Positions 2,064 through 35,541 of a stretch of 64,000 nt of DNA are shown here, in pieces. This stretch comes from Anaeromyxobacter sp. Fw109-5. Its GTDB lineage: Bacteria; Myxococcota; Myxococcia; Myxococcales; Anaeromyxobacteraceae. The stretch lies in the NCBI RefSeq assembly GCF_000017505.1, contig NC_009675.1, positions 62,001 to 126,000 on the forward strand, in the 5' to 3' direction. The notes under the pieces were generated by a model. The model searched no databases. It saw nothing but the letters and a program-made list of their open reading frames with translations, and was not told the DNA's origin. Every line of letters begins with the position of its first letter. Positions within the stretch are counted from its first letter, which is position 1. Position numbers and translations under genes: made by a program.

Positions 2064-2867
2064 ATGCCCCTCAAGATCCTGGTGACCGCCAAGCGGGTGG
2101 AGGACCCGGAGTCGAAGATCAAGGTGAAGCCCGACGGCTCGGGGATCGTCACCGACGGGGTCAACTACAAGATGAACCCCTTCGACGAGATCGCCGTCGA
2201 GGAGGCGCTGCGCCTGAAGGAGAAGCACGGCGGTGAGGTGGTCGTCGCCTCCATCGGGGGCGAGAAGTCCGCCACCGAGCTCCGCGCCGCCCTGGCCATG
2301 GGCGCCGACCGCGGGATCCTCGTGCGCCACGACGGTCCGCTCGACCCGGTGGTCGTCTCCGCGCTCCTCGCCAAGGTCTTCGAGCTGGAGAAGCCGGACC
2401 TCGTGGTGCTCGGCAAGCAGTCCATCGACGACGACCAGAACCAGGCCGGCCAGTACCTCGCCGCGCGCCTGGGGCTCGCCCAGGCCACGTTCGCCTCCAA
2501 GACGGAGAGCCTCGAGAGCGAGGCGGAGCAGAAGAAGCAGCCAGGGCTCGCGCTGGCGGCGGACGGCAAGACCCTCGCCGTCGTCCGCGAGGTGGACGGC
2601 GGCGTGGAGACGCTCGAGGTGACGCTCCCGGCGGTGGTGACCACCGACCTGCGGCTCAACAAGCCGCGCTTCGCCTCCCTCCCCGGCATCATGAAGGCGA
2701 AGAAGAAGGAGCTGAAGGAGCTCGCGGCGGCCTCGCTCGGCGTGGATCTCGCGCCGAAGGTGGTGGTGCGGAGGCTCTCCGAGCCCCCCGCGCGCAAGGG
2801 CGGCGTGAAGGTGCAGGACGTCGAGGAGCTGTGGAAGAAGCTCCACGACGAGGCGAAGGTCGTCTAG
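2064..2867 (+). CDS. etfB: Electron transfer flavoprotein beta subunit
   Basis: Encodes 267 residues, slightly longer than the usual 250 or so. The N-terminus (MPLKILVTAKRVEDPESKIK), the MNPFDEIAVEEALRLKE segment, the GADRGILV stretch and the C-terminal ADLRLN-like TTDLRLNKPRFASLPGIMKAKKK segment are hallmarks of EtfB. With EtfA it forms a soluble heterodimer that carries electrons from acyl-CoA and other flavin dehydrogenases to the quinone pool through ETF:quinone oxidoreductase. The frame is open upstream, but ATG 2064 matches the family start. etfA follows after 20 nt, so the pair is an operon. The sequence looks like the ordinary rather than the bifurcating type, though that is inferred. 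Confidence 0.95.
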   Translation: MPLKILVTAKRVEDPESKIKVKPDGSGIVTDGVNYKMNPFDEIAVEEALRLKEKHGGEVVVASIGGEKSATELRAALAMGADRGILVRHDGPLDPVVVSALLAKVFELEKPDLVVLGKQSIDDDQNQAGQYLAARLGLAQATFASKTESLESEAEQKKQPGLALAADGKTLAVVREVDGGVETLEVTLPAVVTTDLRLNKPRFASLPGIMKAKKKELKELAAASLGVDLAPKVVVRRLSEPPARKGGVKVQDVEELWKKLHDEAKVV

Positions 2868-2887
2868 GCGCGCGGCGGAGGAACACC

Positions 2888-3850
2888 ATGGCGAACGTCC
2901 TCATCGTGGCGGAGCAGTCCGGCGGCGCGATCCGCAAGGCGACGTTGCACGCGATCTCGGCGGGGCGCGAGGTGGCGCGCCGCACCGGCGGGGAGCTGCA
3001 CGTGGCGCTCCTGGGGAAGGGGATCGGCGCGGCGGCCGAGGAGCTCGCCGGCTACGGCGCCGAGGTGCACGCCGCCGACGCCGCGGTGCTCGAGCACCCG
3101 CTCGCCGAGGCGCACGCGCCGGTGGTGGCGGAGCTCGCCCGCGCCGTGCAGGCGGCCTACGTCGGCGCGGCGGCGACGGCGATGGGCAAGGACCTCCTGC
3201 CGCGCGTCGCCGCCCTGCTCGAGGCGGGCATGGCCACCGAGGTGCTCGGCTTCGGCGGCGACGGCGCGGAGTTGACGTTCCATCGGCCGATGTGGGCGGG
3301 CAACGTCCTCGCCGAGGTCGCCATCGCCACGCCGGTGAAGGCGTTCACCGTGCGGGCGACCGAGTTCCCCGCCGCGGCGAAGGAGGGCAAGGGGGCCGTG
3401 ATCCCGGCGCCGGTGAGCGTGGACGCGGGCGCCCTGCGCACCCGCTACGCGGGGTTCAAGGAGGTGAAGAGCGAGCGGCCGGAGCTCACCGAGGCGCGCG
3501 TGGTGGTCGCGGGCGGGCGCGGCACGAAGGGCGACTTCAAGGCCGTGGAGGCGCTCGCCGACGAGCTCAACGCGGCGGTCGGGGCGAGCCGCGCGGCGGT
3601 GGACGCGGGCTGGGTGCCGAACGACTGGCAGGTCGGCCAGACCGGCAAGGTGGTCGCGCCGGACCTGTACGTCGCCGCCGGCATCTCGGGGGCGATCCAG
3701 CACCTCGCCGGCATGAAGGGCTCGAAGGTGATCGTGGCGGTGAACAAGGATCCCGACGCGCCCATCTTCCAGCTCGCCGACTACGGCCTCGTCGCCGATC
3801 TCTTCAAGGCGCTGCCGGAGCTCACCGCGAAGGTGAAGGGCGCCCGTTGA
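2888..3850 (+). CDS. etfA: Electron transfer flavoprotein alpha subunit
   Basis: Encodes 320 residues, normal for EtfA. A GGAGG Shine-Dalgarno lies 7 nt before ATG 2888. The C-terminal FAD-binding half carries [28 protein letters not shown]-type and [18 protein letters not shown] motifs, and ends in the [18 protein letters not shown] segment that defines the family. It binds the redox-active FAD of the ETF dimer in the cytoplasm. The gene directly follows etfB. The next gene, an MBL-fold enzyme, starts only 31 nt downstream and may share the transcript. A thiolase at 18.5 kb is consistent with fatty-acid oxidation in this organism but is not adjacent. Confidence 0.95.
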
Positions 3851-3881
3851 CGGAACGTCGGCGGGGCGGCGCGGGCGGGCG

Positions 3882-4886
3882 ATGACCGAGGCGGACCTCG
3901 CCGCGCTGGGGGTGCACCGCATCGCGGTGCCCATCCCCTTCCCGCAGGCGGGCGGGCCGGTCAACGTCTACGCCATCGAGGAGGCGGGCGGCGGGCTCGT
4001 GCTCTTCGACTCGGGCTTCTCGAGCGCGGAGGCGCACGCGGCGCTCGAGGACGGCTTCCGCCGCATCGGCCGGCGCTTCGACGAGGTGACGCGCATCGTC
4101 GTGTCGCACGGCCACGTGGACCACTACGGCGGCGCCCGCCACGTCCAGGAGCTGCACGGCGGCACGCCCCCCGTGTACGCGCACCCGGCCGATCTCCCCA
4201 AGGTGACCGAGGAGGGCTGGCGCTGGCGCGAGCACGCGCCCGCGTACGCGGCGCACCTCGCGCGCCTCGGCCTCCCCGAGGACGTGATCGCGGCCACCGC
4301 CGCGGCGGGCGAGAAGAGCTTCGAGCTCGCGCCCCGCGTCCCCGAGGCGCGCCCCCTCGCCGAGGGCGAGCGGCTCCGCGCGCGCCACCTCGACCTCGAG
4401 GTGCTCCACATGCCGGGGCACACCCCCGGCCTCGTCTGTCTCTACGACCGCGCGCGGCGGCTCTTCCTGTCCGACGATCACCTGCTGCAGAAGATCTCGC
4501 CGAACCCGCTCATCGAGCTGGGCCCGCACGGCGAGGAGGGCTACTTCCGCCCGCTCCTCGCCTACCTCGACAGCGTCCGCCGCCTGCACGCGCTCGACGT
4601 CGACCTCGTGCTCCCCGGCCACGGCCCGCCGTTCTCGGGCCACCGCGCGGTGATCGACCGGCTCGTGGAGTTCTACGGGAAGCGTCAGGCGAGGCTGCGC
4701 GAGCTCCTCGCCGCGGGGCCGCGCACCGCGTGGGAGCTCTGCCGGACGCTCTTCCCCTGGGCGAAGCCGGCCGAGGCGTTCCTCACCATCTCCGAGACGG
4801 CCGCGAACCTCGAGCTGCTGGAGGCGCGCGGGGAGGTCGCCCGGACGGAGGTGGCCGGCCGCTGGAGCTACGCGCTGGCCCGCTGA
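3882..4886 (+). CDS. MBL-fold metallo-hydrolase with C-terminal winged-helix-like extension
   Basis: Encodes 334 residues. The metal-binding HxHxDH motif is at His76, His78, Asp80, His81 (SHGHVDHYGG). Further ligands are supplied by MPGHTPG, the SDDHLL segment and LPGHGPPF. The last 100 residues or so form a helical, winged-helix-like tail (ELLAAGPRTAWELCRTLFP) as in LACTB2-like members of the superfamily. The substrate is unknown; thioester, glyoxalase-like or nuclease activity are all possible. Placement 31 nt after etfA suggests a hydrolase working with acyl-CoA metabolism, which is inference. ATG 3882 has only a weak purine-rich upstream stretch. Confidence 0.85.
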   Translation: MTEADLAALGVHRIAVPIPFPQAGGPVNVYAIEEAGGGLVLFDSGFSSAEAHAALEDGFRRIGRRFDEVTRIVVSHGHVDHYGGARHVQELHGGTPPVYAHPADLPKVTEEGWRWREHAPAYAAHLARLGLPEDVIAATAAAGEKSFELAPRVPEARPLAEGERLRARHLDLEVLHMPGHTPGLVCLYDRARRLFLSDDHLLQKISPNPLIELGPHGEEGYFRPLLAYLDSVRRLHALDVDLVLPGHGPPFSGHRAVIDRLVEFYGKRQARLRELLAAGPRTAWELCRTLFPWAKPAEAFLTISETAANLELLEARGEVARTEVAGRWSYALAR

Positions 4887-4950
4887 CCTCCGCAGTCCCG
4901 GCCACTGCCGCTCGACAAGGACCCCCGCATCGGGCAATCAGAGGGCCGCC

Positions 4951-5712
4951 ATGCTCGACCTCCTCACCCAGCCGGACGTCTGGATCTCGCTCGCCACGCT
5001 CGCCGCGATGGAGATCGTCCTCGGCATCGACAACGTGGTGTTCCTCACCATCCTCGCCGGGCGCCTCCCGCAGGAGCAGCAGCCGAAGGCGCGCAGGCTC
5101 GGGCTCGGCTTCGCCCTCGCCACCCGGCTCGGCCTGCTCTTCGCGATCAGCTGGGTGATGGGGCTCACGCGCGAGCTGTTCTCCGTCGCCGGCCAGGGCT
5201 TCTCCGGGCGCGACCTCATCCTCCTCGCCGGCGGCCTGTTCCTCATCGGCAAGGCGACGTTCGAGATCCACGACAAGCTCGAGGTGGAGCACGGGCCGGA
5301 GGAGGCGAAGAAGGGCGGCGCGAGCTTCTGGGGAGTGATCGTCCAGATCGGCATCCTCGACATCGTCTTCTCGCTCGACTCCGTCATCACCGCCGTGGGC
5401 ATGGCCCGCCACCTCTCGGTGATGGTGACCGCGATGGTGCTCGCGGTGGGCGTGATGCTGGTGTTCGCCGGGCCGATCGGGGGCTTCGTGGAGCGCCACC
5501 CGACCATGAAGATGCTCGCGCTCTCGTTCCTCATCCTCATCGGCGTGATGCTCGTGGCGGAGGGGTTCGGCAGGCACGTCGAGAAGGGCTACATCTACTT
5601 CGCGATGGCGTTCTCGCTGGCGGTGGAGCTCCTCAACATGCGCATCCGGCGGGCGAAGGAGGCGCCGGTGAAGCTGCACGGTCGGTTCGAGATCGAGGAG
5701 CCCCGTGGCTGA
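4951..5712 (+). CDS. TerC family integral membrane protein
   Basis: Encodes 253 residues with about seven membrane segments. The diagnostic TerC motifs are present: GIDNVVFLTILAG near residues 25-37 and FSLDSVITAVGMA in the middle, with acidic residues inside membrane helices thought to bind metal. TerC proteins are linked to tellurite resistance, manganese efflux and metal loading of exported proteins; which applies here cannot be told. The following DMT-family gene starts inside the last codons of this one (8-nt overlap), so the two are translated from one message. The start is ATG 4951 after a weak AGAGGG element. Confidence 0.9.
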   Translation: MLDLLTQPDVWISLATLAAMEIVLGIDNVVFLTILAGRLPQEQQPKARRLGLGFALATRLGLLFAISWVMGLTRELFSVAGQGFSGRDLILLAGGLFLIGKATFEIHDKLEVEHGPEEAKKGGASFWGVIVQIGILDIVFSLDSVITAVGMARHLSVMVTAMVLAVGVMLVFAGPIGGFVERHPTMKMLALSFLILIGVMLVAEGFGRHVEKGYIYFAMAFSLAVELLNMRIRRAKEAPVKLHGRFEIEEPRG

Positions 5713-6607
5713 CCTGGCGCTGCTCGTCCTCACGCTGTTCTGGGGCACCACCTTCCACTTCGTGAAGGGGGTGCTCGAGGTCGCCTCGCCGGGCGTGTTC
5801 CTCGCGGCGCGCTTCGCGACGGCCGCGGCCGTCCTGGGCGCGGTCGCGCTCTGGCGGCGCGAGCGGGTGGGGGCGGGGTTCCTGCGCCACGGGGTGCTGC
5901 TCGGCGCGTTCATGCTGGCGGGCTTCGCCCTCCAGACCGTCGGGCTCCGCCACACGACGCCGGCGCGCTCCGGCTTCTTCACCGGCCTGGCGGTGCTCAT
6001 CGTCCCGTTCCTCGCGAGGTTCCTGCTCGGACGGGCGGTGAAGATGGCGAGCTGGGCGGGCGTCGCGCTGGCGGTGGCCGGGCTCGCGCTGCTCACCCAC
6101 CCCTTCGGCGAGCCGGTCGACGCCGGGGTGCGGCTCGGAGATCTCCTCACCGCCGGCTGCGCCGTCGCGTTCGCGCTCCAGATCGTCTACACGTCCGAGT
6201 GGTCCCCCCGGCACCCCATCGTGCCGCTCACGCTCGCGCAGATCACGGTCACCTTCCTCGGAGCGGCGGCGATGCTGCCCTTCGAGTCGCGCTACTACCG
6301 GCCCGAGGGCGCGGCGGTGTTCGCCGTCACGGTGGTCTTCACGGGCGTGTTCATGACCGCCCTCGCCTTCTTCGTCCAGAACTGGGGCCAGCGGCACACG
6401 ACGGCGGTCCGCGCGGCGCTCATCTTCTCGCTCGAGCCGGTGGCGGCGGCGCTCTTCAGCCACTTCTACGGCGGCGAGCCGCTGCGGGCGACCGACTGGG
6501 GTGGCGGCGCGCTCATCGCGCTCGGCGTCGTCGCCGGGGAGGTGGGCGGCTTGGTGGAGGGGCGGCGGTCCCCCGGCCCCGCGCTCACCGCCGGCGGGCG
6601 CGGCTGA
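5705..6607 (+). CDS. EamA/DMT-family transporter
   Basis: Encodes 300 residues starting at GTG 5705, which overlaps the end of the TerC gene by 8 nt. Two EamA repeats of five hydrophobic segments each are visible (first about 5-135, second about 145-285). They carry the typical WGTTFHFVKG start, the LRHTTPARSGFFTGL helix and the second-repeat LIFSLEPVAAALFSHFYGGE segment. DMT proteins export small metabolites or take up nucleotide sugars; substrate cannot be predicted from sequence. Translational coupling to TerC is the only functional hint. Confidence 0.88.
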   Translation: MADLALLVLTLFWGTTFHFVKGVLEVASPGVFLAARFATAAAVLGAVALWRRERVGAGFLRHGVLLGAFMLAGFALQTVGLRHTTPARSGFFTGLAVLIVPFLARFLLGRAVKMASWAGVALAVAGLALLTHPFGEPVDAGVRLGDLLTAGCAVAFALQIVYTSEWSPRHPIVPLTLAQITVTFLGAAAMLPFESRYYRPEGAAVFAVTVVFTGVFMTALAFFVQNWGQRHTTAVRAALIFSLEPVAAALFSHFYGGEPLRATDWGGGALIALGVVAGEVGGLVEGRRSPGPALTAGGRG

Positions 6608-6714
6608 GAAGGGGCCCCAGCCTCGGCCCCCGGGCGGTCGGAAGCCCGCCGCAGGGCTTCCCCGCGTCCCGAGCGGTCTCCATGTTGCGTGTGACGGAGA
6701 GGGCCCTCACGCGC

Positions 6715-7893
6715 ATGAATCATCCGGACACGTCTCTCTCGATCGCCTACGCCAACTATGGGGAGCAGAGCGGTGTCACCGCCCACGTGGCCGGAGCGCT
6801 CCGCGCCCTCGGCCACCGGATCGCTCCGGTGTCGGCGCGCGGGCCGCTCGACCTCCGCGACCCGCAGACCCGCCTGCCCCGGCTCACCCGCGACGTGTTC
6901 GCCCACCTGGCGGTCGCTGCCGCGCGCTTCCGGGGGCGGGCGCTCGCGTACCGCTGGAACACGGCGTACGCCTTCGACGTCCACTCGCGCTACCTCGGCG
7001 CGGCGATCGACGGGCTCGATCCCGCCCCGGACGTCGTGCTCCAGAACGGCGCCCTGTTCGCGCCCGGCGCGCCGCCGCGCGTCCCGTACGTCCTCCTGCT
7101 CGACCACACGCGCGCGCTCGCGGAGGCGTCGCCGGCGTTCCCCGCCGCCGGCCTGGCGGCCCCGCCGCGCTACGGCCCGTCCTGGTTCGCGCGCGAGCGC
7201 GCCTGCTACCAGGGGGCCGCCGCGATCGCGACGTTCTCCGAGAACGTGGCCCGCTCGCTCGTGCGCGACTACGGGATCGCGGGCCAGCGCGTGGAGATCG
7301 TCGGCGCCGGCGCGAACGCGGTGCCGGAGCGGGTGGTCCGCGCGGACGACGGCGAGACCATCCTCTTCGTGGGGCGCGAGTTCGCGCGGAAGGGCGGGAC
7401 GTTCCTGCTCGACGCCTTCGAGCTGGTGCGCCGCCGCCGGCCGTCGGCGCGGCTGCTCATCGCGGGACCGCCCGAGCCCCTCGCCCTGCCCGCCGGCGCC
7501 GAGCAGCTCGGGCCCGTTCCCTACGAGGAGCTCGAGCCGCTGTTCGCCCGCGCCACCGTGTTCGCCCTGCCGACCTTGTGGGAGCCGTTCGGCATCGCCT
7601 TCCTCGACGCGATGGCGTGCGGCGTGCCCTGCGTCGGGACCCACGTCGAGGCGGTGCCGGAGATCGTCGAGGACGGGAAGACCGGCGTGCTCGTGCCGCC
7701 CGGGGACCCGGCCGCCCTCGCGGAGGCGCTGCTCGCGCTCCTCGGCGATCCGGCGCGTGCGCGGGCGATGGGCGCGGCGGGCCGCGCGCGCGTGCAGGGC
7801 CGCTTCCTGTGGTCGCACGTCGGCGGCCGGCTCGACGGCCTGCTCCAGTCGGTGCGGGCGACGCCGCGCCAGCCCGCGCGCGCCGCCTCCTGA
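6715..7893 (+). CDS. Glycosyltransferase family 4 (GT-B fold)
   Basis: Encodes 392 residues. The N-terminal Rossmann-like half (SIAYANYGEQSGVTAHVAGAL) resembles acceptor-binding domains of GT4 enzymes. The C-terminal half has the donor site: ILFVGREFARKGG, then LWEPFGIAFLDAMACGVPCVG followed by EIVEDGKTGVLVPPGDP. The usual second Glu of the EX7E motif is replaced by Asp (FLDAMA). It probably transfers a sugar from a nucleotide-sugar donor during surface polysaccharide or glycolipid synthesis. No other polysaccharide gene is nearby. An alternative in-frame ATG at 6682 would add 11 residues; neither start has a good Shine-Dalgarno. Confidence 0.85.
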   Translation: MNHPDTSLSIAYANYGEQSGVTAHVAGALRALGHRIAPVSARGPLDLRDPQTRLPRLTRDVFAHLAVAAARFRGRALAYRWNTAYAFDVHSRYLGAAIDGLDPAPDVVLQNGALFAPGAPPRVPYVLLLDHTRALAEASPAFPAAGLAAPPRYGPSWFARERACYQGAAAIATFSENVARSLVRDYGIAGQRVEIVGAGANAVPERVVRADDGETILFVGREFARKGGTFLLDAFELVRRRRPSARLLIAGPPEPLALPAGAEQLGPVPYEELEPLFARATVFALPTLWEPFGIAFLDAMACGVPCVGTHVEAVPEIVEDGKTGVLVPPGDPAALAEALLALLGDPARARAMGAAGRARVQGRFLWSHVGGRLDGLLQSVRATPRQPARAAS

Positions 7894-7989
7894 GATGGCC
7901 GGCGGTCCGGGCCGCGGCGCTCGTGCCCCAGGAGGGCGGCCGGACGAGCGGGCGGAATGCCGCCGGCCGGTCCCGAGTTATCGTGCGCG

Positions 7990-9174
7990 ATGCGCCGCGC
8001 CCTCCGCCTCGCCCTCGCCGCCACGCTCGCGCTCGCCGCCTGCCGCACCGTCCCGCCGCCGCCCCCGCAGCCGGCCACCACCGCCGAGCGGGCCCTCGAG
8101 GAGCTCTCGCCCGGCGCCTTCCCGGCGTTCGGCGACGACCTCGACTACGCGGGCCTGGACGCCGCCCTGGAGGGATCGCTGCAGCACTTCGCGCGGGTGG
8201 CGCGCGCCGATCCCGGCCGGACGCTCGCCTTCGGGAAGGAGCGCGTCCCGGTCGCGAAGGTGGCCGCCTCGCTGCGGCGCTTCCGCGAGCTCGTGGGGGC
8301 GCGGCCCGCGCCGGCCGCGCTGCGCGAGGCGCTGCGCCGCGAGTTCCGCGTCTTCCGCTCGATCGGCGACGGGCGCGGGACGGTGCTCTTCACGGGCTAC
8401 TACCTCCCGGAGATCGCGGGCTCGCTCGAGCGCGGCGGCCGGTACCAGGTCCCCCTGCACCGGGCCCCGGTCGATCTCGTGCAGGTCCGCGCGCGCGACT
8501 TCCCCGCGCTCTCGGCGGACCTCATCGGCCGGGTGCGCGACGGCCGGCTCGTGCCGTATCCGACGCGCGCGGAGATCGCGGACGGCGCCATCGCCGGCCA
8601 GGGCGCGGAGCTGGCGTGGGTCGCCTCGGCGGTGGACGCCTTCTTCCTGGAGATCCAGGGGAGCGGGCTCTTGCGCCTGCCGGACGGGACCACCCGCGTC
8701 GTGACCTACGCCGGCAAGAACGGCCACCGCTACGAGGCGATCGGCGCCGAGCTGATCCGCCGCGGCGCGCTCACGCGCGAGCAGGTCTCGATGCAGGCCA
8801 TCCGCGCGTGGCTCGCGGCGAACCCGGCGGAGCAGCCGCTCCTCCTCGCCACGAACCCGTCCTACGTCTTCTTCCGCTTCGCGGACGACGCCATCGGCTC
8901 CCTGGGCGTGCCGGTCACCCCGGATCGCACCATCGCCGCCGACGCGCGCGTGTTCCCGAAGGGCGCGCTCGCCTTCGTGGAGACGGAGCGCCCCGCGGAC
9001 GCGACGGGGGGGCCCATGAAGCCGTTCGGCCGGTTCTTCCTCGACCAGGACGCGGGCGGCGCGATCAAGAGCTCGGCGCGCGTCGACCTGTTCCTCGGCA
9101 GCGGCGCCTACGCGGAGAGCGCGGCGGGACGGATGAAGCAGCCGGGGCGGCTCTACTACCTGCTCCTGAAGTAG
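7990..9174 (+). CDS. mltA: Membrane-bound lytic murein transglycosylase A, lipoprotein
   Basis: Encodes 394 residues. The N-terminus is a lipoprotein signal ending LALAAC with Cys18 as lipid site. The MltA domain follows (TVLFTGYYLPEIAGS, then GNGYEA-like KNGHRYEAIG, and a 3D-type C-terminal part with SARVDLFLGSG). The Asp in VDLFLGSG corresponds to the catalytic Asp region of the family. The enzyme cleaves the MurNAc-GlcNAc bond of peptidoglycan with 1,6-anhydro ring formation, anchored in the outer membrane. No Shine-Dalgarno precedes ATG 7990; a TATCGT hexamer ends 5 nt before it, pointing to leaderless expression. Confidence 0.92.
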   Translation: MRRALRLALAATLALAACRTVPPPPPQPATTAERALEELSPGAFPAFGDDLDYAGLDAALEGSLQHFARVARADPGRTLAFGKERVPVAKVAASLRRFRELVGARPAPAALREALRREFRVFRSIGDGRGTVLFTGYYLPEIAGSLERGGRYQVPLHRAPVDLVQVRARDFPALSADLIGRVRDGRLVPYPTRAEIADGAIAGQGAELAWVASAVDAFFLEIQGSGLLRLPDGTTRVVTYAGKNGHRYEAIGAELIRRGALTREQVSMQAIRAWLAANPAEQPLLLATNPSYVFFRFADDAIGSLGVPVTPDRTIAADARVFPKGALAFVETERPADATGGPMKPFGRFFLDQDAGGAIKSSARVDLFLGSGAYAESAAGRMKQPGRLYYLLLK

Positions 9175-9176
9175 AA

Positions 9177-9208
9177 GCGCCCGGCCCCGCGCGGGCGGGA
9201 CCGGGCGC
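9177..9208. terminator. Bidirectional hairpin between convergent mltA and uraA
   Basis: A 14-nt arm (9177-9190) pairs with 9195-9208 around a 4-nt GCGG loop, with one mismatch in 14 pairs. It begins 3 nt after the mltA stop and lies 26 nt beyond the uraA stop on the other strand. There is no U-tract. The position between converging genes makes a shared terminator the most likely role. Confidence 0.6.
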
Positions 9209-9233
9209 CGAGGATTCGCCGCCGCTCGGGGAT

Positions 9234-10538
9234 CTAGACGTCCGCCGCCTCGCCGGCCGCCTCGCCGGCGCCCTTCTCCATGGCGCGGGGCAGGATCAGG
9301 TTCAGCAGCATGCCGACGTAGGCGGCGAGGGACATCTCGCCGAACTCGATGCCGCCGATGTGCAGCTTCGCGCCGCCGATGCCGATGACGAGCACCACCG
9401 AGGCGATGATGAGGTTGCGCTTCTGGGAGAAGTCGATGCCGGCCTCGACCAGCATGCGGATGCCGGCGGAGGCGATGATCCCGAAGAGCAGGATGCAGAT
9501 GCCGCCCATCACGTGGGTCGGGATGGTGCGGATGAGCGCGCCCACCGGCGGGAAGAACGACATCACGATGGCGATCACGGCCGCGCCGCCGATGACCCAC
9601 ACGCTGAACACCCGCGTGATCGCCATGACCCCGATGTTCTCGCCGTAGGTGGTGTTGGGCGGGCCGCCCAGGAGGCCCGCGAAGGCGGTGGCCACGCCGT
9701 CGCCCGCGAGCGAGCGGTGGAGGCCCGGATCCTTCACGAAGTCGCGCCCCACGATGTTGTTCGTGACGATGAGGTGGCCGATGTGCTCGGTGATGACGAC
9801 GAGCGAGATCGGGGCGAGCGTGAGGATCGCGCCCCAGGTGAACTTCGGCGGCACGAAGGGGGGCAGCGCGACCGGCGCGGCGGACCTCACCGCGTCGAAG
9901 CTCACCTGCCCGGCGAGGAGCGCCACGAGGTAGCCGCCCACGATGCCGATCAGGATGGGGATGACGCCGAGGAACCCCTTCAGGAACACCGCCGCCAGGA
10001 TGGCGATCGCGAGCGCGGAGAGGGCCACCGCGAAGTACTCGGGGTGATAGGTCCCCGTGCCGCCCTCCATCGCCATCGTCACCACCGCGGTGCGGGCGAG
10101 GCCGAGGCCGATGACCATCACCACCGAGCCGATGACCACGGGCGGCAGCAGCCGGTCGATCCAGCCGGTGCCGAACTTGCCGATGATGGCCGCCACGACG
10201 ATGTAGACGAGGCCCACCACCACGCAGCCGCCCATGGCGACCGCGATGCGGTCGGGCGAGGCGAGCTCTCCCGCCTTGGCGCCGAGCAGGCCGATGAACG
10301 CGGCGATGAAGGCGAAGGACGACCCGAGGTAGGCGGGGATCTTCCCCTTCGTCACGAAGATGTAGAGCAGCGTGCCGACGCCGGAGGTGAAGAGCGTCAC
10401 CGAGGTGTCGAGGCCGACGAGGTACGGCACGAGCACCGTCGCGCCGAACATCGCGAACAGGTGCTGCAGCGAGAGGGGGATGCTCTGCAAGAGCGGGAGC
10501 CGCTCTCCCACGTCGACGGTGCGCTGCTCCGCTTTCAT
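9234..10538 (-). CDS. uraA: Uracil/xanthine permease (NCS2 family)
   Basis: Encodes 434 residues with about 14 hydrophobic segments. Family marks include LQHLFAMFGATVLVPYLVG near residues 24-42, the SLVVITEHIGHLIVTNN segment carrying the substrate-contacting Glu, and GLLGGPPNTTYGENIGVMAITR, which matches the uracil-permease signature. It imports uracil or a related nucleobase with protons across the inner membrane. The frame is open upstream, but ATG 10538 has a GGGAGG Shine-Dalgarno 6 nt away and matches the family start. Inverted repeats in its leader are described separately. Sequence favours uracil, but xanthine is not excluded. Confidence 0.92.
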   Translation of the reverse strand: MKAEQRTVDVGERLPLLQSIPLSLQHLFAMFGATVLVPYLVGLDTSVTLFTSGVGTLLYIFVTKGKIPAYLGSSFAFIAAFIGLLGAKAGELASPDRIAVAMGGCVVVGLVYIVVAAIIGKFGTGWIDRLLPPVVIGSVVMVIGLGLARTAVVTMAMEGGTGTYHPEYFAVALSALAIAILAAVFLKGFLGVIPILIGIVGGYLVALLAGQVSFDAVRSAAPVALPPFVPPKFTWGAILTLAPISLVVITEHIGHLIVTNNIVGRDFVKDPGLHRSLAGDGVATAFAGLLGGPPNTTYGENIGVMAITRVFSVWVIGGAAVIAIVMSFFPPVGALIRTIPTHVMGGICILLFGIIASAGIRMLVEAGIDFSQKRNLIIASVVLVIGIGGAKLHIGGIEFGEMSLAAYVGMLLNLILPRAMEKGAGEAAGEAADV

Positions 10539-10554
10539 CTTCGCCTCCCGGGGG

Positions 10555-10597
10555 GAGCCCACGTCCCTGCGGGCGGGCTCGGTGTCTCTTCGAAGAG
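10555..10597 (-). promoter_or_regulatory. uraA leader: 12-bp palindrome plus hairpin next to the ribosome site
   Basis: CTCTTCGAAGAG (10586-10597) is a perfect 12-bp palindrome about 48 nt before the uraA ATG. Closer in, GAGCCC (10555-10560) pairs with GGGCTC (10575-10580), placing a hairpin just before the Shine-Dalgarno. The first looks like a dimeric-regulator site and the second like a leader hairpin. No known pyrimidine regulator motif was recognised. Confidence 0.4.
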
Positions 10598-10628
10598 GTA
10601 GGGCCATGGCGGCGCGCATGATGCCAGA

Positions 10629-10644
10629 GGGGGCTGACGCCCCC
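10629..10644. terminator. GGGGGC-TGAC-GCCCCC hairpin in uraA/58-aa spacer
   Basis: A perfect 6-bp stem with 4-nt loop (10629-10634 with 10639-10644) lies between the divergent uraA and the small gene at 10736. Its orientation relative to transcription is ambiguous, and it has no U-tract. It may only be a structural hairpin. Confidence 0.25.
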
Positions 10645-10735
10645 AAGCGAGGTTCGCGCGCAGGGGTGGCCCCGAAGGCGCCTCGCACCGGCGCGCGGGC
10701 GGCGCGACGATCCCGGCCAGACGCGGAGGTGGGCG

Positions 10736-10912
10736 ATGGCACAAGACAGGCGAGGCGGCTTCCATTCGCTCGAGAAGAAGATCCACGACCTCGAGGAGCA
10801 GGACCGCACCTCGGAGCGGAAGGCCGGCGCGGAGGGCGGGCAGCGGCGCGAGCCGAAGGGGGAGAAGGAATCGGCGGAGCGGCGCACCCCGCCGGCCGCC
10901 CACGACGAGTGA
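10736..10912 (+). CDS. Small highly charged hypothetical protein (58 aa)
   Basis: An unrecognised 58-residue frame with a very good GGAGGTGGG Shine-Dalgarno 5-7 nt before ATG 10736, which is the main reason to accept it. The product is hydrophilic and charged (about half Lys, Arg, Glu, Asp, Gln), with a SLEKKIHDLEEQ helix near residues 12-23 and a disordered remainder. No cysteine or hydrophobic core is visible. It is divergent from uraA and precedes the MBL nuclease gene by about 100 nt. Function unknown. Confidence 0.6.
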   Translation: MAQDRRGGFHSLEKKIHDLEEQDRTSERKAGAEGGQRREPKGEKESAERRTPPAAHDE

Positions 10913-11010
10913 GCAGAGCCCTGCGGGCGTGAGCCCCCGAGGCGCGCCGCGACCCGGCGCGCAGGCGGGGGTTCGCGCCTGTGGGGAGGGCGGTGTAGAA
11001 CGGGCGCCCG

Positions 11011-12003
11011 ATGAGGCGGCCGCCGATCGAGCTCCACAAGGGAGAGCTCCGCATCACCCACAGCGCGCTCCACCTCGACGCGAAGCGCCGCGTCGAGTGC
11101 GCGTTCGTCTCGCACGCGCACGGCGACCACATCGGCCGCCACGACCGCACCATCGCGACCACCCCGACCCTGGCGCTCATGCGCCACCGGCTGGGGGAGC
11201 CGAAGCGGCGCAAGACCGAGGCGCTCCCCGTCGACTACCGCACGCCGTTCGGGCTCGGCGAGCTCACCCTCGAGCTGTTCAGCGCGGGCCACGTGCTCGG
11301 CTCGGCGCAGCTGCGCGTGACCCGCAACGAGGTGGCGGTGGGCTACACCGGCGACCTCTGCACCGAGCCCACCCACGCCGCGGAGCGCGCGGACGTGATG
11401 CCGTGCGACGTGCTCGTGATGGAGTCGACCTTCGGGCTGCCGCGCTACGTCTTCCCGCCCAAGGAGGAGACCCTCGCGGCGGTCCGCAGGTTCGTGGACG
11501 ACGCCCTGTCGGACGGCGTCACCCCGGTGCTCCTCGGCTACGCGCTCGGCAAGGCCCAGGAGATCCTGAAGTTCCTCTCCGACGCGGGCTACCCCTGCCG
11601 CGCCCACCCGGTGGTGCACGCGGTGAACCGGGTCTACGAGGCCCACGGCGTGGCGTTCCCGAACGTGCGGGCGCTCGGGCCGGAGGGGCCGGAGCGTGGG
11701 GAGGTGGTCGTCGCCCCCCCGCACCTCGCGCGCAGCCCCGCGATGCGGGGCGTGGGAAAGCGCCGCACCGCCATCCTCACCGGCTGGGCGATCGACGGCG
11801 GTCGCTGGTTCCGCGGCGTGGACGCGGCCTTCCCGCTCTCCGACCACGCCGACTTCCCGTCCCTCGTGCGCTACGCGAAGGCGACCGGCGCCGGGCGCGT
11901 CTTCACCGTGCACGGCCACGCCGACGCGCTCTCCGCCGCGCTCCGCAAGGAGGGCGTGCGGTCGGAGCCGTTGCGCGAGCACATGCAGCTGGAATTGCTG
12001 TAG
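11011..12003 (+). CDS. MBL-fold exonuclease of the CPSF/beta-CASP-like group
   Basis: Encodes 330 residues. The metal site is HAHGDH at His35, His37, Asp39, His40, followed by SAGHVLGSAQ and the YTGDLCTEP motif. A later GYALGKAQEILKFL segment and PLSDHADF motif complete the site. This set is typical of the YSH1-related exonuclease family often found near ATP-dependent DNA ligases; no ligase is in this window. It probably digests DNA or RNA ends in the cytoplasm. TAGAAC ends 9 nt before ATG 11011 and no Shine-Dalgarno is present. The stop is only 5 nt from the stop of the convergent methyltransferase gene. Confidence 0.85.
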   Translation: MRRPPIELHKGELRITHSALHLDAKRRVECAFVSHAHGDHIGRHDRTIATTPTLALMRHRLGEPKRRKTEALPVDYRTPFGLGELTLELFSAGHVLGSAQLRVTRNEVAVGYTGDLCTEPTHAAERADVMPCDVLVMESTFGLPRYVFPPKEETLAAVRRFVDDALSDGVTPVLLGYALGKAQEILKFLSDAGYPCRAHPVVHAVNRVYEAHGVAFPNVRALGPEGPERGEVVVAPPHLARSPAMRGVGKRRTAILTGWAIDGGRWFRGVDAAFPLSDHADFPSLVRYAKATGAGRVFTVHGHADALSAALRKEGVRSEPLREHMQLELL

Positions 12004-12008
12004 CGGGC

Positions 12009-12686
12009 TCAGCGCACCTTCACTCCGAGCGATAGCCCCTCCGCCGTCGGGAGCATCGTCGCGCGGAAGCGGCCGCCGCGGGCGAGCCGCTCGCTGAAGC
12101 GCCGCAGCGGCTCCATCGCGGCGGCGTCCTCGCCGGCCGAGGCGGGCTCGTGCACGTGGCCGAAGCCGAAGGTGTTGTCGGCGAGCAGGACGCCGCCCAC
12201 GCGCAGGTGCTCCTCCGCCCAGGCGAGGTAGGCGGGGTAGCCGCCCTTGTCGGCGTCCACGAAGACCAGGTCGAAGGGGCCCTCGCCCTCCACCTCCCGC
12301 AGCCGCTCCAGGGCGGGGCCGACGTGGACCCGGACGCGGCCCGCCACGCCCGCGCGCGCGAACGCGGCCCGCGCGAGCGCGGCGTGCCGCTCGAGCAGCT
12401 CGAACGTGTGGAGCACGCCGTCCTCCGGGAGCGCCCGCGCGAGGCAGACGCCGCTGTACCCGGCGAGCGTGCCGATCTCGACGATCCGGCGCGCGGCGCA
12501 GGCGCGGGCGAGCACCTCGAGGTGGAGCCCGTCGAAGCGGCCCACGTGGATGGGCGGGAGGCCGGCCGCGTCGCTCCGCGCCCGGATCTCGCGCAGCACC
12601 TCGTCCTCCGGCGCGTACACCGACTCCGCCCACGCCGCGAGCGCGGGGTCGCCCTGCCCGAACCCCTTCACCGGGGGAGATCCCAT
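12009..12686 (-). CDS. SAM-dependent O-methyltransferase (family 3)
   Basis: Encodes 225 residues. The SAM pocket is seen as EIGTLAGYSGVCLARALPEDG, then HTFELLERHAALA, and the metal-linked VFVDADKGGYPAYL followed by GGVLLADNTFGFGHV. This is the catechol-O-methyltransferase-like family 3 layout, usually Mg-dependent. The natural substrate is unknown. ATG 12686 is chosen because a GGAGGACAGG Shine-Dalgarno lies just upstream. The gene converges with the MBL exonuclease with 5 nt between stops, leaving no room for a separate terminator. Confidence 0.88.
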   Translation of the reverse strand: MGSPPVKGFGQGDPALAAWAESVYAPEDEVLREIRARSDAAGLPPIHVGRFDGLHLEVLARACAARRIVEIGTLAGYSGVCLARALPEDGVLHTFELLERHAALARAAFARAGVAGRVRVHVGPALERLREVEGEGPFDLVFVDADKGGYPAYLAWAEEHLRVGGVLLADNTFGFGHVHEPASAGEDAAAMEPLRRFSERLARGGRFRATMLPTAEGLSLGVKVR

Positions 12687-33017: not shown

Positions 33018-33035
33018 GAAGCTCCGCGCAGCTTC
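33018..33035. terminator. GAAGCT/AGCTTC hairpin at the thiD-dnaB convergence
   Basis: GAAGCT (33018-33023) pairs with AGCTTC (33030-33035) around a 6-nt loop. It is 18 nt past the thiD stop and overlaps the dnaB stop codon. It is short and has no U-tract. Confidence 0.3.
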
Positions 33036-34458
33036 ACTGTCCGTCGCGCCGCCGCTCCATCTCCGCGAAGTAGGTCGTGGTCTTGAAGAAGACGAGCGGG
33101 ATCGTGCCGGTGGGACCCTGGCGCTGCTTCGCCACGACGAGCTGGACCTCGAGCGTGTCGCCGCTCGCGGTGCCGGACTGGACGTCCTTGTTGTCCTCGT
33201 CGTTCCGGTGCAGGAACATGACGATGTCCGCGTCCTGCTCGATGGCGCCCGACTCGCGCAGGTCGGAGAGCATGGGCGGCTCCCCCTTGCGCTTCTCCAC
33301 GCCGCGGTTGAGCTGCGAGAGCGCCACGATGGGGCACTCGAGCTCCTTGGCGAGCGACTTGAGCGAGCGGCTGATGGTGGCGATCTCCTGCTCGCGCGAC
33401 TGGCTCGCGCGGTCCGACGGGGCGTGCATGAGCTGGAGGTAGTCGATCATCACGAGGTCGAGGCCGCCGTTCTCGCGCTTCAGCTTGCGGCACTTGGAGC
33501 GCAGCTCGACCGGGGTCAGCACGAAGTTGTCGTCGAGCCAGATGGAGGCGGCGCCGAGCTTGTCCGCGTGCGTGGCGATCTTCTGCCAGTCGTAGGCGGA
33601 GAGCTGTCCCGCCGAGAGCCGCCGCCAGTCGAGGCGGGCCTCCGAGGCCAGCATGCGGAGCGCGAGCTGGTCGGAGGGCATCTCGAGCGAGAAGAACGCG
33701 ACCTTCTTGCCGGCCCGGGTGGCCGCGTGCGTCGCGATGTTGAGCGCGAAGGCGGTCTTGCCCACCGAGGGGCGGGCGGCGAGCACGGTGAGCGTGCCGG
33801 GCTGGAACCCGAGGGTGTTCTTGTCGAGCGACTGGATGCCGGTGGGCACGCCGGTGATGGGCGAGAGGCCGGCCTGGACGCGCTTCTGGACGGCCTCCAG
33901 GTTCTCGATCGCCCGCATCACGGGCTCGGCGATCTTCTTCAGCGTCTCGGTGCCGGTCCCCTGCGCCGCCCCGAAGACGTCCTGCTGGGCGGAGTCGAGG
34001 AACTGCTGGACGCTCGCCCCCGCCTCGTAGCCGCGCTCCACCACCCGCTGGGCGGTGAGCATCATCTGCCGCAGCCGGGCGAGCTCCTGCACCGTGCGCC
34101 CGTAGTGCTGCACGTTGGCGGTCGTGCCGATGGCGCGCGCGAGCGAGAGCGGCAGCTCGCGGGGGACGGCGCTGCCGAGGAGCCCCTTCGCGTCGAGCCG
34201 CTGCTGCACGAGGATGGGGTCGAGCGTCTTCGACTCGCGCGCGAGCTCCTCGCACACCGCGTACACGTGCTGGTGCGCGAGCAGGTAGAAGTCGCCCGAC
34301 TTGATGAGCGCGGCGACCTGGTCGAAGGCGGTCTCCTCGACGAGGATCGCGCCGATGACCGCCTGCTCGGCCTCGAGGCTGTGGGGCAGGTCGCGGGCGC
34401 TGCGCAGGGGTGCGACGGGCGCCTCGGAGACGCGTCGGACGGGGTCGTGCTCGGCCAT
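33034..34458 (-). CDS. dnaB: Replicative DNA helicase DnaB
   Basis: Encodes 474 residues. The N-terminal DnaB domain (about 22-125, starting LPHSLEAEQAVIGAIL) and linker helix precede the RecA-like ATPase domain. Walker A is ARPSVGKTAFALN with Lys234, Walker B is VMIDYLQLM, and the H4 motif is SQLNRGVEKR. The arginine finger region (AKQRQGPTG) and full length indicate an active hexameric helicase. No intein is present. The spacer upstream holds an unusual 11-bp-periodic array. rpsF, rpsR and rplI, often next to dnaB, are absent here. The start ATG 34458 lacks a strong Shine-Dalgarno. Confidence 0.96.
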   Translation of the reverse strand: MAEHDPVRRVSEAPVAPLRSARDLPHSLEAEQAVIGAILVEETAFDQVAALIKSGDFYLLAHQHVYAVCEELARESKTLDPILVQQRLDAKGLLGSAVPRELPLSLARAIGTTANVQHYGRTVQELARLRQMMLTAQRVVERGYEAGASVQQFLDSAQQDVFGAAQGTGTETLKKIAEPVMRAIENLEAVQKRVQAGLSPITGVPTGIQSLDKNTLGFQPGTLTVLAARPSVGKTAFALNIATHAATRAGKKVAFFSLEMPSDQLALRMLASEARLDWRRLSAGQLSAYDWQKIATHADKLGAASIWLDDNFVLTPVELRSKCRKLKRENGGLDLVMIDYLQLMHAPSDRASQSREQEIATISRSLKSLAKELECPIVALSQLNRGVEKRKGEPPMLSDLRESGAIEQDADIVMFLHRNDEDNKDVQSGTASGDTLEVQLVVAKQRQGPTGTIPLVFFKTTTYFAEMERRRDGQ

Positions 34459-34500
34459 GGGAACCGGCGCAGCCTACCAGCGAGGTCCGACGGGATCACC

Positions 34501-34589
34501 GTGGACAGGCGGTGGAAAACGTCGGAAATACCGGGGGAAAACGCTGTGGAGGGAGGGTGGACGGGCTGTGGACGAGGTGTGGACGGGCG
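34501..34589. repeat. Eight-unit 11-bp periodic GTGGA array before dnaB with DnaA-box-like sites
   Basis: Reading the plus strand, GTGGA starts at 34501, 34512, 34546, 34557, 34568 and 34579, with two diverged units (CGGAA at 34523, GGGGA at 34534) keeping the 11-bp beat apart from one 12-bp unit. On the dnaB strand three of these read NNNTCCACA (34545-34553, 34567-34575, 34578-34586), the form of DnaA boxes in GC-rich bacteria. Units 2-4 make a locally A-rich stretch. The array lies 43-131 nt upstream of the dnaB ATG, in a 252-nt spacer with no gene. Confidence 0.7.
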
Positions 34590-34710: not shown

Positions 34711-35541
34711 ATGAAGAAGACCTTCGCCCTCGCCCTCCTCGCGCTCACCGGCGCCGGCTGCGCCGGCCTCTCCGATCTCGCCCGCGTCGCCTTCGAGGAG
34801 CCGAAGCTCAGCTTCCGCTCGGCGAGCGTCGAGGCGCTCGACCTGGAGGGCGCCACCATCGGCGTGAAGTTCGACCTCGAGAACCCGAACGGCTTCGGGC
34901 TCGACGTGGCGCGCGTCGGCTGGGGCGTGGAGGTGGAGGGGACCCGCGTCGCCACCGGGGACATGCCCGGCGGGCTCGCGATCCCGGCGAAGGGCGTCGC
35001 GCCGCTCACCATCCCCGTCCGCGTGCGCTACCAGGACGTCCCCGGCATCGTCGGGCTCCTCACGAGCCGCCGCGACGCCATCGGCTACCGCCTCTCCGGC
35101 AAGGTCGGCGTCCGCACGCCCATCGGCATCGTGGACCTCCCCGTCTCGCACTCCGACCGGGTGGCGCTCCCCTCGCTGCCGAGCTTCTCGCTCGAGGGGG
35201 TCTCGCTGCGCACCGCCTCGTTCACCGACATGGCGCTCGACGTGAAGCTCCGGGTGAAGAACCCCAACGCGTTCCCCATCCCGGCCGGGAGCCTCGACTA
35301 CGCGCTGTCGCTGGCGGGGACCGAGGTCGTGCGCGCGCAGGACACCGCGCTCGCCAGGGTGGCGGGCGGGGCCGCGCAGATCGTGTCCATCCCGGTGCGG
35401 GTGAGCGTGCTGAAGGCGGGCCGCGCCGCCACGGAGCTCGCGCGCGGCGCTCCCGTCCAGCTGGGGCTCGCCGGGACCGCGGACGTGGCGGGCATCCCGG
35501 TGCCGCTCGACCTCGCCGCGACGGTCCCGGCCCGGCGCTGA
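34711..35541 (+). CDS. LEA-type-2 (WHy domain) lipoprotein
   Basis: Encodes 276 residues. The N-terminus is a lipoprotein-like leader with Cys17 (LTGAGC; the -3 position is Gly rather than the standard Leu). Two WHy/LEA-2 domains follow (about 30-135 and 165-265), each with a F-x-L-x-N-PN-x-F motif (FDLENPNGFGLDVA and LRVKNPNAFPIPAG). LEA-2 proteins of this kind are associated with desiccation and stress protection and probably sit in the periplasm. TAGAAC ends 7 nt before the ATG with no Shine-Dalgarno. Confidence 0.85.
   Translation: MKKTFALALLALTGAGCAGLSDLARVAFEEPKLSFRSASVEALDLEGATIGVKFDLENPNGFGLDVARVGWGVEVEGTRVATGDMPGGLAIPAKGVAPLTIPVRVRYQDVPGIVGLLTSRRDAIGYRLSGKVGVRTPIGIVDLPVSHSDRVALPSLPSFSLEGVSLRTASFTDMALDVKLRVKNPNAFPIPAGSLDYALSLAGTEVVRAQDTALARVAGGAAQIVSIPVRVSVLKAGRAATELARGAPVQLGLAGTADVAGIPVPLDLAATVPARR

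Follow-up and report, generated by a model that had tools for sequence, protein, structure and literature searches.

The analysed window (64 kb) corresponds to positions 62001-126000 of the single-contig 5.28-Mb Anaeromyxobacter chromosome. In this window, the replicative helicase gene dnaB and a divergent gene for a LEA_2-domain protein flank a core promoter of the PafBC type and, abutting it, an array of short units repeated in 11-bp steps (Table 1). Since some relatives retain the array beside different upstream neighbours, the LEA_2 gene was not regarded as a part of the element.

GTGGA is present six times in the array at window positions 34501, 34512, 34546, 34557, 34568 and 34579, with steps of 11, 34 (3 x 11 + 1), 11, 11 and 11 bp between the exact units, and the 34-bp gap is filled by the diverged units TCGGA at 34522 and GGGGA at 34534 with steps of 10, 12 and 12 bp. 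An 11-bp GTGGA array of six exact and two diverged units had been proposed in a sequence-only reading of this DNA, and it was confirmed by the unit positions and by the shuffles given below; the distance of 43-131 nt from the array to dnaB (start at 34458, minus strand) was correct as well, and the TCCACA read on the dnaB strand holds for three units. The A-rich middle claimed there stood in part, as the middle 30 bp contains 50% A+T against 26% in the window, but the enrichment is slight. The PafBC-type core was overlooked in that reading.

Table 1. Coordinates of the features at the dnaB locus, given as window positions.
Feature	Position	Strand	Remarks
dnaB, replicative helicase	33034..34458	-	gene served by the promoter; Pfam DnaB E 2.8e-25, DnaB_C E 9.1e-98
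Core promoter GTCGGACCTCGCTGGTAGGCT	34471..34491	-	-26 motif GTCGG, N10, -10 motif TAGGCT
DnaA-box-like unit CTGTCCACG	34500..34508	-	14 nt upstream of core G, about -41
DnaA-box-like unit TTTTCCACC	34511..34519	-	closest to TTWTNCACA; best conserved within the family; -25/-26 from core G
Two diverged units (TCCGA, TCCCC)	34521..34539	-	within the A+T-richer middle
DnaA-box-like unit CCCTCCACA	34545..34553	-	-59 from core G
DnaA-box-like unit CCGTCCACC	34556..34564	-	-70 from core G
DnaA-box-like unit TCGTCCACA	34567..34575	-	-81 from core G
DnaA-box-like unit CCGTCCACA	34578..34586	-	-92 from core G
Divergent LEA_2-domain gene	34711..35541	+	outside the element; Pfam LEA_2 E 1.2e-35

Only one place in the 64-kb window has four identical pentamers in a row at period 11, and a run of four of any pentamer at this period was reached in 1 of 100 whole-window shuffles, while four GTGGA at 11 bp were obtained in none of 5000 local dinucleotide shuffles. 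Throughout the 5.28-Mb genome, three TCCAC at 11-bp steps were found at just three sites (0 matches genome-wide for the reversed control), namely at dnaB, in a genomic island that carries a copy of the dnaB promoter, and beside an integrase. The last one (L033:1501-1527; C1:1224256-1224282) is located upstream of an ORF resembling a tyrosine-type integrase, as identified by eye. The shorter pattern TCCACN6TCCAC gave 23 genomic sites against 14 for the reversed control, and 8 of the 23 are those at the dnaB promoter, its island copy and oriC. On these counts, a genome-wide regulon of the array was rejected.

The copy in the island is a second full dnaB promoter (L034:1501-1603; C1:3081881-3081983), with the array and the PafBC-type core in identical register. 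The island (L092, about 2628-12157) lies at a tRNA-Glu cluster and carries a tyrosine integrase and a serine recombinase, without dnaB. Identity of the copy was 92/109 to the dnaB promoter of a relative versus 82/109 to that of the host itself, so that it looks imported; no match to it was found in phage and plasmid collections.

Conservation of the array and the PafBC-type core

The dnaB upstream regions were collected from relatives, and positions were counted with the initial G of the core promoter as reference. The TCCAC units of the present genome stand at -14, -25, -59, -70, -81 and -92, and the same positions, or positions shifted by one base, recur through the genus Anaeromyxobacter and its family. 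A unit at -25 or -26 is present in 19 of the 22 promoters listed (the island copy included), neighbouring TCCAC in 16 representatives lie mostly 11 bp (19 cases) or 22 bp (8 cases) apart, and invariant columns amount to 21 of 25 in the box cores versus 17 of 53 elsewhere in an ungapped alignment of six genus members, all of these counts coming from related sequences that are not independent. More weight is carried by the divergence of the linkers between the conserved cores. The array keeps company with dnaB in family members whose upstream neighbour gene differs, and the 11-bp beat, for which an alignment of related dnaB upstreams had been proposed as a check, proved to be conserved family-wide at a fixed distance from one core promoter.

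Many dnaB promoters of Myxococcaceae have a similar core (GTCAG, nine or ten bases, TAGA), and Myxococcaceae dnaB promoters are without the array, which indicates that the array is dispensable for controlling dnaB in the order as a whole. Three further arrangements were observed in relatives. In another family of the order (f7; L113, L029 and L030), TCCACA boxes lie upstream of dnaB without the 11-bp register, together with TGTCAGAC. One genome (G010) has two dnaB genes, the promoter of one (L112) with both array and core and that of the other (L019) with neither. In G007 and G004 (L051, L052 and L059, around 1501), an array of three TCCAC with an inverted GTGGA behind it is located between a hemerythrin-like gene and a gene for a receiver-only response regulator, both genes being named by eye; these arrays were regarded as a separate matter.

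The start codon of dnaB lies 12 nt after the core promoter GTCGGACCTCGCTGGTAGGCT. The PafBC (RecA-NDp) motif was described as tTGTCRgtg-8nt-TannnT (PMC5656591) and that of M. tuberculosis as TGTCGG, TGTCAG or TGTCAC-10N-TA-3N-T (PMC8151990); the present core fits TGTC(GG/AG/AC)-N10-TA-N3-T except for the leading T, which is C here. In relatives, the core consists of GTCRG or GTCAC, ten bases and TANNNT, and the strict form GTCRG-N9-11-TANNNT was found in 15 of 28 dnaB upstreams versus 0 of 28 for the reversed one. When this genome was searched with GTCRGAC-N8-TAGNNT, seven matches were obtained (two for the reversed pattern), at dnaB, ruvB, recG, thyX, a PcrA/UvrD-like helicase gene, a PD-(D/E)XK nuclease gene and the island copy, respectively, and other genomes add xseA and nth behind a PafBC-type core. 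At the remaining PafBC-type promoters of the genome, the TCCAC array is absent. PafB and PafC are both encoded, as an adjacent pair of WYL/WCX proteins, one of them with HTH_PafC (E 4.4e-29), and pafBC was reported in Myxococcus xanthus (PMC9705874). Apart from dnaB, Myxococcota loci with PafBC-type cores at DNA-repair-type genes were recorded (L164, L168, L170, L171, L172, L165 and L160), and the cores before the nuclease, ruvB, thyX, PcrA/UvrD-like, recG, nth and xseA genes would make up a mappable PafBC damage regulon in this phylum.

Candidate binders of the array

TCCAC(A), the core repeated in the array, is that part of the DnaA box which does not vary. The dnaA gene (48-1430) and dnaN (from 1847) lie at the chromosome start, and the region between them, the probable oriC (L037:1629-1795), contains one TTTTCCACA and two TCCACA at a distance of exactly 11 bp. 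In most family members, the dnaA-dnaN intergenic region likewise has TCCAC pairs with this spacing, and TTTTCCACA or a variant is found near dnaN in nearly all members. The array itself consists of several boxes in one orientation, 2-3 bp apart, with 11-bp steps both here and in other members of the family. For E. coli DnaA, pairs of boxes separated by 2-3 bp are the preferred site (PMC11317965), and this spacing is equal to a register of 11-12 bp, as in the array.

The bases flanking TCCAC in the dnaB units are shifted towards TTATCCACA as compared with the window background (position 2, T in 40% versus 10%; position 9, A in 34% versus 8%). Only TTTTCCACC is within one mismatch of TTWTNCACA; the five other units have 2-4 mismatches and would therefore be low-affinity boxes at best, filled by cooperativity, and the oriC boxes of the family are similarly loose. 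Domain IV of DnaA is intact, with the DHTTV motif retained, and can be aligned to 1j1v, the box-bound structure from E. coli. By geometry only, 85,000 species genomes were scanned with TCCACN6TCCACN6TCCACN28-30TCCAC, and at least about two dozen loci were obtained with dnaA or dnaN beside the array; among the matches listed, dnaB is just downstream in two Anaeromyxobacter records, a Rhodobacteraceae MAG and a Micrococcales MAG, and many of the matches listed are plain tandem repeats. On a viral contig (L306:11569-11628), a dense TCCAC repeat, which may be a coding repeat, was seen some 500 nt before a DnaB-like helicase gene.

Based on the family conservation, the box pairs at oriC and a geometry scan that reached oriC regions and other dnaB promoters, DnaA would be the likeliest binder of the array. 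The suggestion of a DnaA-controlled dnaB promoter made by the sequence-only reading is accordingly well supported at the sequence level by the conserved beat, the 11-bp TCCACA pair at oriC and the same scan.

Boxes of the OmpR/PhoB family, such as Pho boxes and the TTAA-N7-TTAA of CtrA, also recur every 11 bp upstream of promoters. The array has this identical direct-repeat spacing and a promoter-proximal location, and two relatives have a related triple array in front of the gene for a receiver-only response regulator, as would be expected if a response regulator of this family acted as a cell-cycle regulator of dnaB. Such a regulator is nevertheless rather unlikely, because what is repeated is the invariant centre of the DnaA box, TTWTCCAC or TTGTCCAC is retained by the promoter-proximal unit in many species, the paired motif is also present at oriC, and the 23 TCCACN6TCCAC sites do not form a genome-wide regulon.

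The array, with its several DnaA-like boxes, lies near the origin (96 kb from dnaA in this genome and about 94-108 kb in three other closed genomes) and could also serve as a DnaA reservoir (datA- or DARS-like) that controls initiation by titration or nucleotide exchange, and not dnaB transcription. This role is improbable in view of the register to the dnaB core, which is fixed to the base pair family-wide, of the array following dnaB despite changed neighbours, and of the array plus core at the second dnaB of one genome (L112).

The array of DnaA-like boxes and its slightly A+T-richer middle (50% versus 26%) would suit a local origin or a DNA-unwinding element, and a replication-linked site had been put forward in the earlier reading. 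This was not upheld: dnaA and the conserved oriC-like dnaA-dnaN region are at the chromosome start, 96 kb off, and the A+T-richness of the middle is not conserved. The sampled GC skew, whose minimum had been named as a reference point for the array, is mostly positive to about 2.5 Mb and mostly negative past 2.8 Mb, which fits an origin near position 0. A local origin is most improbable. A meaningless tandem duplication of an 11-bp unit, which might be read from the short low-score array reported by Tandem Repeats Finder, is refuted by conservation, with units conserved and linkers diverged across many genera and with no matches in the local shuffles.

Proposed control of dnaB and comparison with known systems

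The element is read as a dual DnaA/PafBC-controlled dnaB promoter, to which a probability of about 0.7 is assigned. The array would be the upstream half of this promoter, with box starts at about -41, -52, -86, -97, -108 and -119 from the predicted transcription start. DnaA would bind the array cooperatively just upstream of RNA polymerase, its head-to-tail oligomer occupying 9-mer boxes 2-3 bp apart, and would activate dnaB by contacting or stabilising the polymerase, and the helicase supply would then follow the level or state of the initiator. At the PafBC-type core, the WYL-domain pair PafB/PafC, which is activated by single-stranded DNA (PMC11804915), would recruit RNA polymerase, and dnaB would rise on fork stalling or DNA damage. 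The supply of helicase is probably adjusted both to the start of replication and to DNA damage. The array, its register and conservation, the oriC box pairs, the core with its recurrence at DNA-repair genes, PafB/PafC and DnaA are all observed; we infer the binding of DnaA and PafBC, their joint control and an activating rather than repressing DnaA, the direction being taken from a mycobacterial DnaA mutant.

That mutant, DnaA I282T of M. tuberculosis, shows weaker binding at the dnaB promoter and under-expression of dnaB (PMC7738170). In pull-downs with M. tuberculosis DnaA, the region upstream of dnaB was recovered, and homologues of the DnaA-bound regions were found by ChIP-seq in M. smegmatis (PMC7738170). 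M. tuberculosis dnaB is induced by mitomycin, partly through PafBC (PMC8151990). In mycobacteria, each half of the proposed control has experimental support, though separately. Among 30 Mycobacteriaceae dnaB upstreams, TGTC[AG][GCT]-N10-TA was found in 24 (1 for the reversed pattern; shuffle mean 0.56), and the mycobacterial core form with the final T in none. TCCAC occurs 67 times in these upstreams versus 14 in shuffles, with 11 and 12 bp as the commonest adjacent spacings, and the core is combined with at least two upstream boxes in 19 of the 30. In a phylum-wide sample of Actinomycetota, the PafBC-like core was found in 8 of 29 and the core with boxes in 2 of 29, and by these lower counts the composite is clearest in Mycobacteriaceae. 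There is about an even chance that the composite module, in which a DnaA-box array feeds into a PafBC damage promoter, is wiring of dnaB shared by Myxococcota and Actinomycetota, either spread or reinvented between the phyla. If so, dnaB reads both the initiator state and single-stranded DNA, and a copy of the module has even reached a genomic island that has no dnaB.

The opinion of the sequence-only reading that no element of this form had been described was too strong. Boxes spaced by 2-3 bp are known in E. coli (PMC11317965), DnaA-bound dnaB promoters are known in Mycobacterium (PMC7738170), and a DnaA-bound dnaB promoter was predicted in Caulobacter (PMC8203912). What is new is the unusually regular array, and no description of the joint architecture of DnaA array and PafBC core across two phyla was found in the open-licence papers searched. 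Two separate mycobacterial observations, DnaA upstream of dnaB and partial PafBC dependence, merge into one recognisable promoter architecture, which recurs in another phylum with a very regular geometry. The promoter would make a clean system in which to study transcriptional activation by a DnaA oligomer on low-affinity, phased boxes and to ask whether the helicase supply is tied to initiation and replication stress.

Of the known systems, the Mycobacterium dnaB promoter (PMC7738170, PMC8151990) shares the gene, upstream DnaA boxes spaced by 11 or 12 bp and a PafBC-like core, but its boxes are fewer and less regular, whereas Anaeromyxobacter, in another phylum, has six exact and two diverged units, as putative DnaA boxes, in strict register. 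For dnaB of Caulobacter crescentus, a member of the DnaA regulon (Hottes 2005, via PMC8203912), upstream DnaA boxes are likewise predicted and expression depends on DnaA, but no PafBC-type core is described in the passage on it in that review. The double DnaA boxes of E. coli (PMC11317965) have the same head-to-tail spacing in an 11-12 bp register; they are pairs near the TTATCCACA consensus, whereas the Anaeromyxobacter array is a longer run of mostly weaker boxes. With the PafBC/RecA-NDp promoters of Mycobacterium (PafBC itself being reported from Myxococcus xanthus as well, PMC9705874), the locus shares the GTCRG-N10-TANNNT core, PafB/PafC and the DNA-repair neighbours, and it differs from the other PafBC-type promoters of this genome in that the dnaB promoter adds an upstream DnaA-like array.
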